From Candidatus Altarchaeum sp. (GTDB lineage Archaea; Altiarchaeota; Altiarchaeia; Altiarchaeales; Altiarchaeaceae), in contig JAGTWP010000043.1 of the NCBI GenBank assembly GCA_018260755.1, positions 3,570 to 11,942 of the forward strand: a stretch of 8,373 nucleotides of DNA. Reading direction: 5' to 3'. Positions within the stretch are counted from its first letter, which is position 1, and the number at the start of each line of letters is the position of its first letter. A program made the position numbers and the translations under genes. Below are positions 4,376-6,835 of the stretch, in pieces. The notes beneath the pieces were generated by a model, which was given only the letters and a program-made list of their open reading frames with translations, did no database searches and was not told where the DNA came from.

Positions 4376-5398
4376 ATGAAATATAGAAATAATCCAAGCA
4401 ATATAAATACTGACAAACAGGAAATTTCTGCAATTTGTTTTTCATCGCTTCCGTTAGTAAATTTTGGTGATGAAAGAGCGGCATTCTTTGGCATATCTTT
4501 AAAAACAACCGCGAAAGCAACAATCAGTGAAAAAAGTAATGAAAATAGTGAAAGCAGGATTGAAATAAACGGGTGTGACGAATTAAAAAATGAATTAGAA
4601 ACACTCATCAATAAAGTTTTTAAAAAATTTGAATTTCCTTACGGAATAAACATCCAAATTTTTCCTGAAAACAAAAATGATAAATTTTCAATATTTTCCG
4701 CTGTTGGTATTGCAGCTTACGGTATAGTAGCAACAAAATATGGTATAATTTATGATGAAATAATGGAAAAAAAAATAAGGAGCGACAAGACAACAAAAAG
4801 AAAACTCATAAAAATTCACAAAAAAATATATACCTACAATGAAATTTTTGATGATGTCATTTCTTTGATAAATTCAGATATAAATTATATTAATTATATT
4901 CAGGCATATTCTTCTTATTTTGGTGGAATTGCTGTTGGAAAAATGAATGAAACAAATAATAACTCCAAACATAACTCCAAATGTGAAATTTTGCGATATG
5001 GAGAAAATGAAAATTTGGATGTTGTGTTAATTCCGAAAGGCAAAGAAAATGCAGACGAAAACAGAAAAGAAAATGATGAAAAAAATAAAGACACAAATAT
5101 AAATGGTGCCGATGATATTTTATGGGATGAAATTTTAAAAGGAAATTTTTACACGGCAGCAAATTTAGGATGCATATTGGAATTATTCAAAGATGACTGC
5201 AAATTTTATGAAATTATCGGATATTTAATGAAGGATGCATTATATTGCGGAATGACCGACAATTATATTTTAGGTGTATTCAGAAAAGGTACTAACAAAA
5301 ATTTAGGCAGCATATCAAAGGAATTAAAAAATTTAAGAAAATTTAATGAAAATTTAATTATGACAACCGCAAATAATTCTCCTGCGGGGATTTATTAA
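4376..5398 (+). CDS. Archaeal shikimate kinase homologue (GHMP fold), catalytic motifs not recognisable
   Basis: This 340-residue protein resembles archaeal GHMP-type shikimate kinase, which normally has about 280 residues. Shared landmarks are AAFFGISLKTTAKATI near the N-terminus (35-50), AYSSYFGGIAV (177-187), NENLDVVLIP (211-220), LKGNFYTAANLGCIL (254-268) and a C-terminal NNSPAGIY, against a family ending of the N(N)xGAS type. The catalytic parts are gone. Where the family has the GLxSSSA phosphate loop, this protein reads KFSIFSAVG (103-111). The DDA of the catalytic loop before SYxGG is IQA (175-177). The GTGPS motif near the C-terminus is missing before YILGVF (297-302). Extra length comes from an N-terminal extension and Lys/Asn-rich insertions at about 130-150, 190-203 and 222-245. 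The frame is intact. It may be a pseudoenzyme, a repurposed GHMP protein or a gene in early decay. The comparison is from memory of the family, not an alignment run. Confidence 0.65.
   Translation: MKYRNNPSNINTDKQEISAICFSSLPLVNFGDERAAFFGISLKTTAKATISEKSNENSESRIEINGCDELKNELETLINKVFKKFEFPYGINIQIFPENKNDKFSIFSAVGIAAYGIVATKYGIIYDEIMEKKIRSDKTTKRKLIKIHKKIYTYNEIFDDVISLINSDINYINYIQAYSSYFGGIAVGKMNETNNNSKHNSKCEILRYGENENLDVVLIPKGKENADENRKENDEKNKDTNINGADDILWDEILKGNFYTAANLGCILELFKDDCKFYEIIGYLMKDALYCGMTDNYILGVFRKGTNKNLGSISKELKNLRKFNENLIMTTANNSPAGIY
4959..4982 (+). repeat. 12-bp in-frame tandem duplication inside the GHMP-like gene
   Basis: ataactccaaac is followed directly by ataactccaaat, 11 of 12 bases identical. 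In the protein this gives the repeated residues NSKH-NSKC (196-203), within an Asn/Lys-rich insertion just after the SYFGG segment. The length is a multiple of three, so the frame is preserved. Confidence 0.85.
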
Positions 5399-5496: not shown

Positions 5497-6165
5497 ATGG
5501 ATACAAATGACATGTATAGGGGAATAGACACAAAGGACATATATAAGGGAACAACAACAATCGGACTAAAATGTAAAGACGGTGTTGTGCTTGTATCGGA
5601 CTCAAGGGCATCTATGGGAAGTTTCATAGCGAGCAAAGAAGCAAGAAAAATTTACAAAATTTCAGACCATGTGGCAGGAACGGTTGCAGGGTCTGTCGGA
5701 GATGCGGAAAAATTTATGGAACTGCTCAATGTAGAGGCGGCATTTTACAAGATGCAAAACGGTAAGGAATTATCACCGAAAGGAATTTCATCGCTTGGAA
5801 CAAATATTTTACATGGGAACAGATATTACCCTTATCTTGTGCAAATTTTGATTTGCGGATATAATACGGAGACAAACACAGGAGAAATTTATTCAATTGA
5901 CCCAATAGGAGGTGTTACAGAGGAAGATGCCGCTTCAACCGGTTCGGGAAGTTTAACAGCTTACGGAGTTCTTGAAGCCGAATATTCCGCTGAAAAAACA
6001 ATTGAGGAAAATTTAAAATTAGGAATAAAGGCACTTAGTATTGCTATGGAGAGGGATTCCGCTACTGGAAATCACATAAGATCCGCATTTATAACAAGAG
6101 AGGGATATAAAGAACTGCCAGATGATGAAGTAAAGAAAATTTATGCGGATGTAAAAAGAAAGTAA
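5497..6165 (+). CDS. psmB: Proteasome beta subunit, self-processing N-terminal threonine hydrolase
   Basis: This is the catalytic subunit of the archaeal 20S proteasome, which forms the two inner seven-membered rings and degrades unfolded proteins fed by an ATPase such as PAN. The 222-residue precursor has an 18-residue propeptide ending in Gly, cleaved before Thr19 in YKGTTTIG. With Thr19 as mature residue 1, Asp35 is D17 and Lys51 is K33, so the catalytic triad is complete. SVGDAEKF (66-73), the serine of ASTGSGS (Ser147, mature 129) and RDSATG (186-191, with Thr where Ser169 is common) are also family features. The C-terminus ends soon after the fold, as is usual. The propeptide is an imperfect tandem duplication (see the repeat entry). 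Met6 (5512) is a possible alternative start. No alpha subunit gene is in this window. Confidence 0.97.
   Translation: MDTNDMYRGIDTKDIYKGTTTIGLKCKDGVVLVSDSRASMGSFIASKEARKIYKISDHVAGTVAGSVGDAEKFMELLNVEAAFYKMQNGKELSPKGISSLGTNILHGNRYYPYLVQILICGYNTETNTGEIYSIDPIGGVTEEDAASTGSGSLTAYGVLEAEYSAEKTIEENLKLGIKALSIAMERDSATGNHIRSAFITREGYKELPDDEVKKIYADVKRK
5500..5553 (+). repeat. 27-bp imperfect tandem duplication forming the PsmB propeptide
   Basis: Residues 2-10 (DTNDMYRGI) and 11-19 (DTKDIYKGT) are a tandem duplication; by my count the DNA copies share 22 of 27 bases. The second copy ends with the catalytic Thr19. In the first copy the equivalent residue is Ile10, so only the second site can undergo Gly-Thr self-cleavage. 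Confidence 0.85.
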
Positions 6166-6181
6166 AATTTTAAGGCTCTTA

Positions 6182-6186
6182 TTTTT
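6182..6186 (+). terminator. Possible T-run terminator of psmB
   Basis: TTTTT preceded by ctctta lies 17-21 nt after the psmB stop codon. It is a plausible archaeal T-run terminator, not a proven one. Confidence 0.35.
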
Positions 6187-6194
6187 AATATCGT

Positions 6195-6410
6195 GCTCCT
6201 GCTGTGAAATTTCAAAAATTTTTAGTATCTTCACGGAGTTGAAAATATGAGCCAAAAATCTTAAAGGAGATGTGGCAGACTAATCTAATTCCAAACGTCT
6301 TGAAGGTTGACAATGATTCTGCTTTCGGAAGAAATTTAGTATATGAAAGATGTATTGGAAGATTAACTTTATTTTTACCAATTGTGATAAAAATTTTTCA
6401 TTCAGGATAA
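6195..6410 (+). pseudogene. Remnant of a DDE (rve-type) transposase
   Basis: From the ATG at 6270 one frame gives 46 residues containing IPNVLKVDNDSAF and RCIGRLTLFL. This matches the integrase-core pattern around the second catalytic Asp (D at 6309-6311) as I remember it from DDE transposases, where the text normally continues through a PWNNG..EG.N segment to the catalytic Glu. Here the frame degenerates after LTLFL and stops at 6408-6410, so the Glu region is absent. Upstream, the same frame continues back to about 6195 (FLVSSRS, then KYEPKILKE) but is broken by TGA at 6240-6242. Both ends of the element and the first catalytic Asp are missing, and I found no terminal inverted repeats. It is a relic with no expected activity; the IS family cannot be assigned. 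Confidence 0.6.
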
Positions 6411-6455
6411 TTCTGTTTTGAGAATAAATTAACTCCATTCTCTATATAATTACAA

Positions 6456-6599
6456 TTACTCCGAAAGCTCTGCCTGCTGGCGCGACCATTCACGATTAGG
6501 TGTCTTTTTCAGCCACTCAACATAACGGTCAATAAATTTCAGCCGTTCTTCAAAGTTTTTCTTCTTTTCTTCGCGGAGTTCGTATAAATTTATTTTCAT
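6456..6599 (-). CDS. Small conserved-looking protein with a WSRQQ motif, function unknown
   Basis: This 47-residue charged protein begins MKINLYELREEKKKNFEERL, which should be helical, and ends in DRYVEWLKKTPNREWSRQQ plus AELSE. The pattern YxEWLKxTPNxxWSxQQ is familiar to me from short archaeal hypothetical proteins, in which I recall the segment after QQ being longer. If so, this copy may be shortened at its C-terminus. No function should be inferred. I chose the ATG at 6599 because an A/T box (6622-6629) is centred 26 nt upstream and the recognisable sequence begins there. An in-frame ATG at 6644 would add 15 hydrophobic residues but has no suitable promoter. It lies between the transposase remnant and pheS and looks richer in G+C near its 3' end than the flanking spacer. 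Confidence 0.55.
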   Translation of the reverse strand: MKINLYELREEKKKNFEERLKFIDRYVEWLKKTPNREWSRQQAELSE

Positions 6600-6835
6600 T
6601 GTTGCAAAGATTATAAAGAAGTTTAATAATTTGTATTCGCTCATATACTTATTATTATTGAACTTTTGTGTTTTGCATTTTTAGTGTATTTGACTTAATT
6701 TATATTTGAGTTTGTGCTTGAATTTTAAAATTTGCAAAACTTCAACAATGTATTTGAACTCCATCAGTAAAAATCAAGATAAGAGCAATTTCTATTTACT
6801 TCCACGGTGATTTAAATTCATCAGTCATTCATCCG
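6600..6835. other. Spacer without a recognised gene
   Basis: Apart from the promoter box of the small WSRQQ gene, this 236-bp stretch holds only very short frames (27 and 20 codons). A run of five T on the minus strand (6773-6769), 63 nt after the pheS stop, could terminate pheS transcription. No RNA gene or repeat was recognised. Confidence 0.5.
6622..6629 (-). promoter_or_regulatory. Probable TATA box of the small WSRQQ protein gene
   Basis: Read on the minus strand this is ttattaaa, centred about 26 nt before the ATG at 6599. It supports that start over the ATG at 6644. Confidence 0.35.

Follow-up and report, generated by a model that had tools for sequence, protein, structure and literature searches.

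A second copy of shikimate kinase lacking the residues of phosphate transfer is kept under selection in Altiarchaeota

Members of the GHMP kinase family that serve without catalysis have been described in eukaryotes. In the passage of PMC11349215 that cites Luz et al. (2003), XOL-1 of Caenorhabditis elegans is presented as a protein of GHMP structure for which ATP binding was undetected in vitro. The yeast protein Gal3p, also a member of the GHMP kinase family, functions as a transcriptional inducer (PMC11349215). The non-catalytic GHMP examples that can be named are thus eukaryotic, and we found no description of a GHMP-type pseudoenzyme in prokaryotes in the open-access literature, nor anything relevant there on Altiarchaeum and shikimate kinase. 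Here we report that in the uncultivated archaeal phylum Altiarchaeota a second copy of the archaeal shikimate kinase, devoid of the residues needed for phosphate transfer, is still kept under selection. It derives from an enzyme of central metabolism and is spread phylum-wide.

The window (the whole stretch of 8,373 nucleotides analysed, G000:C77:3570-11942) belongs to a genome of 1.32 Mb that is 85% complete; of its named relatives, Candidatus Altarchaeum and Altiarchaeales MAGs are the nearest. Codes in G, g and f designate genomes, genera and families of the searched set, G000 being the genome of the window. The degenerate GHMP shikimate-kinase paralog, hereafter pSK, is encoded at 4376..5398 on the plus strand (340 amino acids), as delimited by the ORF call and profile comparisons. 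It lies among ordinary archaeal genes, recognized with Pfam and NCBIfam models: DUF460, Trm1, two glycosyltransferases, a proteasome beta subunit and PheS. The next gene, psmB for the archaeal proteasome beta subunit (5497..6165, plus strand), is co-directional with pSK and occupies this place in all four genomes of the genus; its role is unproven. A 12-bp unit, AACTGCTAAATT, is present in five perfect copies at 1-62, immediately upstream of the DUF460 gene. The gap of about 660 bp between psmB and pheS (6170-6835) contains a 62-residue ORF on the minus strand as its sole ORF, and gave no Rfam match.

Pfam and NCBIfam scans, TIGR01920 included, returned no significant family match for the ORF at 4376-5398, and the family assignment made in an earlier note on this DNA was therefore tested with profiles. 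Homology to the TIGR01920 family extends over the full length: residues 16-339 were aligned by hhalign with nine intact archaeal shikimate kinases (98.2%, E 3.7e-14). The match with degenerate paralogs of other Altiarchaeota is stronger than that with the kinases (hhalign 99.6%, E 1.9e-24), and an HMM built from twelve degenerate paralogs detects the window ORF at E 3.6e-22, so that the description of this protein as a shikimate kinase homologue is borne out. Searching the PDB with the window protein alone gave no match, the pSK profile gave weak matches to GHMP homoserine and mevalonate kinases, and no GHMP shikimate kinase was among the PDB matches to the kinase profile. The AlphaFold model computed from the four sequences of the genus has a pLDDT of 33, too low to be of use. 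The protein is a paralog that fails three defining features of archaeal shikimate kinase, and it should not be annotated as such.

These features are the GLxSSS phosphate loop, the DDA motif and the GxGP loop, which are found in all or nearly all of 31 aligned intact kinases (20 from Altiarchaeota and 11 from other archaea) and are missing in the window pSK. The GLxSSS loop is present in 31/31 kinases and in none of the pSKs. At 4679..4702 of the plus strand, on which all features given here lie, the GLKSSSAA of the kinases corresponds to DKFSIFSA, GLKSSS having become a shortened DKFSIF. At 4895..4915 FDDAAAS corresponds to YIQAYSS, followed by a kept YFGG; the catalytic Asp of DDA is replaced by Gln in the window and by Arg in one ortholog of the genus. 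The GxGP loop is deleted at 5246..5269. Landmarks on either side of each site are in register, which confirms that all three GHMP motifs are gone and not merely displaced. The SYFGG, GNFYTA and C-terminal NN..A landmarks are kept. The former N-terminal substrate motif (4451..4501; TIVNAIATGKGAAFGIDL in the kinases, PLVNFGDERAAFFGISL in the window) changes slowly in the genus, and the kept helix motif GNFYTAANLG (5141..5170) corresponds to GNLYTAM.LN in the altiarchaeal kinases.

Outside the window's genus, the dead site of pSK has been remodelled. The third Ser of the phosphate loop is Glu in 14/15 of these pSKs, and the catalytic Asp position is occupied by Arg in 11, Met in 2, Lys in 1 and Asp in 1; this last pSK, from G025, is the only one without the Glu. 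We infer that a Glu-Arg salt bridge replaces Mg-ATP in these proteins. In the window's genus, which has diverged further, the Glu is lost and the Arg mostly absent. The note raised sugar or nucleotide binding as possible new roles. A nucleotide is unlikely to bind at the old site, given the loss of the phosphate loop and, in the majority of paralogs from other genera, a Glu in the loop and an Arg in place of the Asp. A C-terminal tail, KPxxIxKxxEFLKLKGxxEFxWL, typical of pSKs, is conserved outside the genus wherever the available sequence reaches the C-terminus, and is found in 0/4 orthologs of the genus. This tail (L022-L028, L065-L070) ends in most cases with an aromatic-hydrophobic pair, like a short docking motif.

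Related genomes encode two kinds of homologue: intact kinases of TIGR01920, and degenerate paralogs that have lost what the window protein has lost. The latter occur in 19/29 Altiarchaeota genomes, MAGs of 60-92% completeness for which single absences are uncertain. None was found outside the phylum, the 394 genomes around the window giving only kinase-like matches there, and viral contigs contain no relative. In a maximum-likelihood tree built without the insert (described below) and tail columns, all 19 pSKs form one group (support 97/100, 19 rows), with the window pSK inside it, adjoining the altiarchaeal kinases. This shows a single origin next to the intact altiarchaeal kinases; a clade of altiarchaeal kinases that excludes pSK was not rejected (p 0.36). 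The pSKs of the window's genus form a fast-evolving clade on a long branch.

All four orthologs of the genus are open and 69-79% identical, with dN/dS values of 0.17-0.33 between all pairs; those of the neighbour psmB are 0.11-0.19. The most constrained parts are the stretches that once formed the N-terminal motif and the P-loop region, together with the GNFYTAANLG helix and the C-terminus. No internal stop occurs in the 19 pSK copies, which are retained in 12 genera of 5 families. The window pSK is under purifying selection and is not decaying, and the proposal of a pseudoenzyme as opposed to simple decay thus holds. The same note credited the gene with its own promoter, which was not demonstrated: sites of sigma-70 type are no more frequent in the scan than in shuffled sequences, and the scan omits archaeal promoters.

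Loss of the aromatic pathway, another suggestion of the note, is rejected, since aroA, aroC and an archaeal dehydroquinate synthase gene are present in the genome of the window. The search for aro genes and a second kinase succeeded for the former; no intact GHMP kinase was found, with a bacterial-type AroK instead. None of the four genomes of the genus has a GHMP shikimate kinase that reaches the cut-off of the family, and three of them (G003, G000 and G002; L089, L090 and L091) encode an AroK (PF01202, E 1e-37 to 1e-40) with the Walker A, shikimate-binding and GGG motifs (GFRGTGKS..SDDEIE..FRRLE..ATGGG..DRP). The best NCBIfam name for these proteins is shikimate kinase, with scores below the strict cut-off of that model; in the rest of the class, PF01202 matches are weak only. 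A bacterial-type AroK appears to replace the GHMP kinase in this genus, which seems to be without shikimate kinase yet has one, an annotation trap that is corrected here.

All pSKs contain an insert of about 24 residues after the helix that follows the P-loop, with the consensus NELRIDKYxxEQFxxIDxKxVDKK. In the window it covers residues 126-155 (4751..4840; YDEIMEKKIRSDKTTKRKLIKIHKKIYTYN) and is diverged yet alignable. The same insert is present in six intact altiarchaeal kinases (G004, G007, G010, G021, G024 and G026) and absent from the other 14 and from the 11 aligned kinases of other archaea. None of the six genomes with an insert-bearing kinase has a pSK, which is found in 13/14 genomes with an insert-less kinase. 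No genome holds both an insert-bearing kinase and a pSK, these absences being confirmed with a broader profile, and 19/20 scorable genomes have the insert in exactly one shikimate-kinase-like protein. The naive Fisher p of 1.8e-4 is uncorrected for phylogeny and the lineages are not independent; perhaps 2-4 independent switches underlie the pattern, counting one inside family f4 and the contrasts between families. The f4 switch opposes G028, whose bin is 6% contaminated, to G007, G010, G021 and G024. In G016 the kinase lacks the insert and no pSK was found; the genomes G013 and G019 of genus g11 yielded no GHMP shikimate kinase and no pSK, although they contain aroC.

Five of the six insert-bearing kinases group weakly with pSK (87/60) and that of G026 is placed elsewhere; a single clade of all six was not rejected (p-AU 0.13). 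In the tree, the G028 kinase and those of genus g12 branch with kinases of other archaea, apart from the altiarchaeal ones; pSK hence accompanies AroK as well as insert-less kinases with two or more origins. The intact kinases of G014, G022 and G028 (L074, L041 and L072) all branch with those of other archaea, which suggests horizontal replacement. The f4 insert-bearing kinases have a divergent acylphosphatase gene upstream, as do several f3 pSKs, and UPF0047 downstream, as do the f3 kinases. This synteny suggests a common locus for the f4 insert-bearing kinases, the f3 pSKs and the f3 kinases.

We propose, with a probability of roughly 60%, that pSK is a GHMP-type pseudokinase that arose from one duplication of an altiarchaeal shikimate kinase, and in which a non-catalytic function of the insert was split from catalysis. 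The ancestral altiarchaeal kinase, or the parent copy of pSK, would have carried the segment that separates the P-loop helix from the one after it, and this insert would serve a second, non-catalytic function, most likely docking of a protein partner. We take the insert to lie, as expected from the GHMP fold, at the end of the P-loop helix that is remote from the active site, a distance that suits docking. After duplication the two functions would have been divided, a single kinase retaining both in some lineages. Elsewhere catalysis would be ensured by an insert-less kinase, whether altiarchaeal, of the GHMP type grouping with other archaea, or AroK as in the window's genus, and the insert-bearing copy would then have lost catalysis and stayed as a scaffold or regulatory protein. 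Because the insert is kept without catalysis, it more likely serves in binding or as a scaffold than in an enzymatic role. Its confinement to one shikimate-kinase-like protein per genome suggests a second, non-enzymatic and previously undescribed function of the insert-bearing protein. The broader idea that the altiarchaeal shikimate kinase is bifunctional, the insert providing a phylum-specific non-enzymatic function that a dead kinase repeatedly keeps once another kinase catalyses, is more tentative and falls somewhat short of even odds. If true, the phylum would constitute a repeated natural separation-of-function experiment. The comparative pattern predicts both the site of the second function, namely the insert, and the genomes whose intact kinase should still bear it.

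Since pSK derives from shikimate kinase, it could regulate the shikimate pathway or serve it as a structural partner, either as a dead subunit of the active kinase or as a sensor of an intermediate. The stretches that change most slowly in the genus, among them the old N-terminal substrate motif, the old P-loop region and the GNFYTAANLG helix, would fit such a role, and an active kinase accompanies pSK in most genomes that have it. However, pSK persists in 4/4 genomes of the window's genus, where no GHMP kinase was found and an AroK of unrelated fold takes its place; its survival beyond the GHMP kinase speaks against an obligate role as a dead subunit of that enzyme. Moreover, G025 (a 70% genome) has pSK, whereas a kinase, aroA and aroC were not found in it and dehydroquinate synthase is present, and no aro gene adjoins pSK in the loci read. 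A pathway partner is for these reasons unlikely. Neighbouring genes hint at a different kind of partner, a radical SAM enzyme of the tRNA wobble uridine (MnmL/TIGR01212 or Elp3). The pSK gene is tail-to-tail with a TIGR01212 (MnmL-like) gene in 8 genomes from 5 genera and 2 families (G005, G006, G008, G009, G014, G015, G022 and G023), and in G025 it lies directly downstream of elp3, on the same strand and about 20 bp away. Convergent genes, however, are not co-transcribed, and the gene order may be inherited. TIGR01212 is near-universal (26/29 Altiarchaeota), making co-occurrence uninformative, and is located elsewhere in the other pSK genomes, that of the window included; in the loci read, no insert-bearing kinase adjoins it. 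We consider this association no likelier than a pathway role. A GTP-type PEP carboxykinase gene precedes pSK on the same strand, adjacent or at about 40 bp, in two genera (G014, L069; G011, L070). A link with the proteasome, considered because psmB is the next gene and the aromatic-hydrophobic pair of the tail recalls HbYX, was rejected: the genus is without the tail, and other pSKs are not located by proteasome genes. As clues to a partner, the two wobble-uridine enzymes, PEP carboxykinase and psmB are no more than hints.

Could pSK instead catalyse some other reaction, from a new active site housed in the former cleft? Certain GHMP-fold proteins have non-kinase activities, such as diphosphomevalonate decarboxylase, which still uses ATP. 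The Glu and Arg that other genera conserve where the catalytic residues were, and the strong conservation of YGGF, RxGEME and EALKGNLYTAM, might be read in this way. Against this, the Glu is gone and the Arg largely missing in the window's genus, and only 5 columns are invariant across 18 pSKs, with no obvious catalytic set among them; we judge such an enzyme quite improbable. That pSK is a functionless leftover in slow decay is hardly credible. Its fast evolution, the long branch of the genus and the loss of the tail would be expected of such a relic, but the dN/dS well below 1 in all genus pairs, the stop-free copies and the wide retention all speak against it.

Compared with the archaeal GHMP shikimate kinase (TIGR01920), from which it originates, pSK shares homology over the whole length, the order of landmarks and the C-terminal NN..A. 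It differs by the loss of the phosphate loop, catalytic Asp and GxGP loop, by the insert, otherwise present in six altiarchaeal kinases only, and by the C-terminal tail outside the window's genus. The bacterial AroK/AroL enzymes (PF01202), unrelated in fold, would supply the missing reaction in the window's genus. With Gal3p, pSK would share the fate of a metabolic GHMP kinase paralog turned to a non-catalytic role, but Gal3p belongs to another family and pSK is not expected to bind a ligand or nucleotide at the old site. The likeness to XOL-1 would be that of a GHMP-family protein kept for a regulatory role without detectable ATP binding. XOL-1 is an animal sex-determination switch for which no close sequence relation to pSK is expected, whereas pSK is an archaeal protein derived from shikimate kinase, whose intact kinase paralogs persist within its own phylum.
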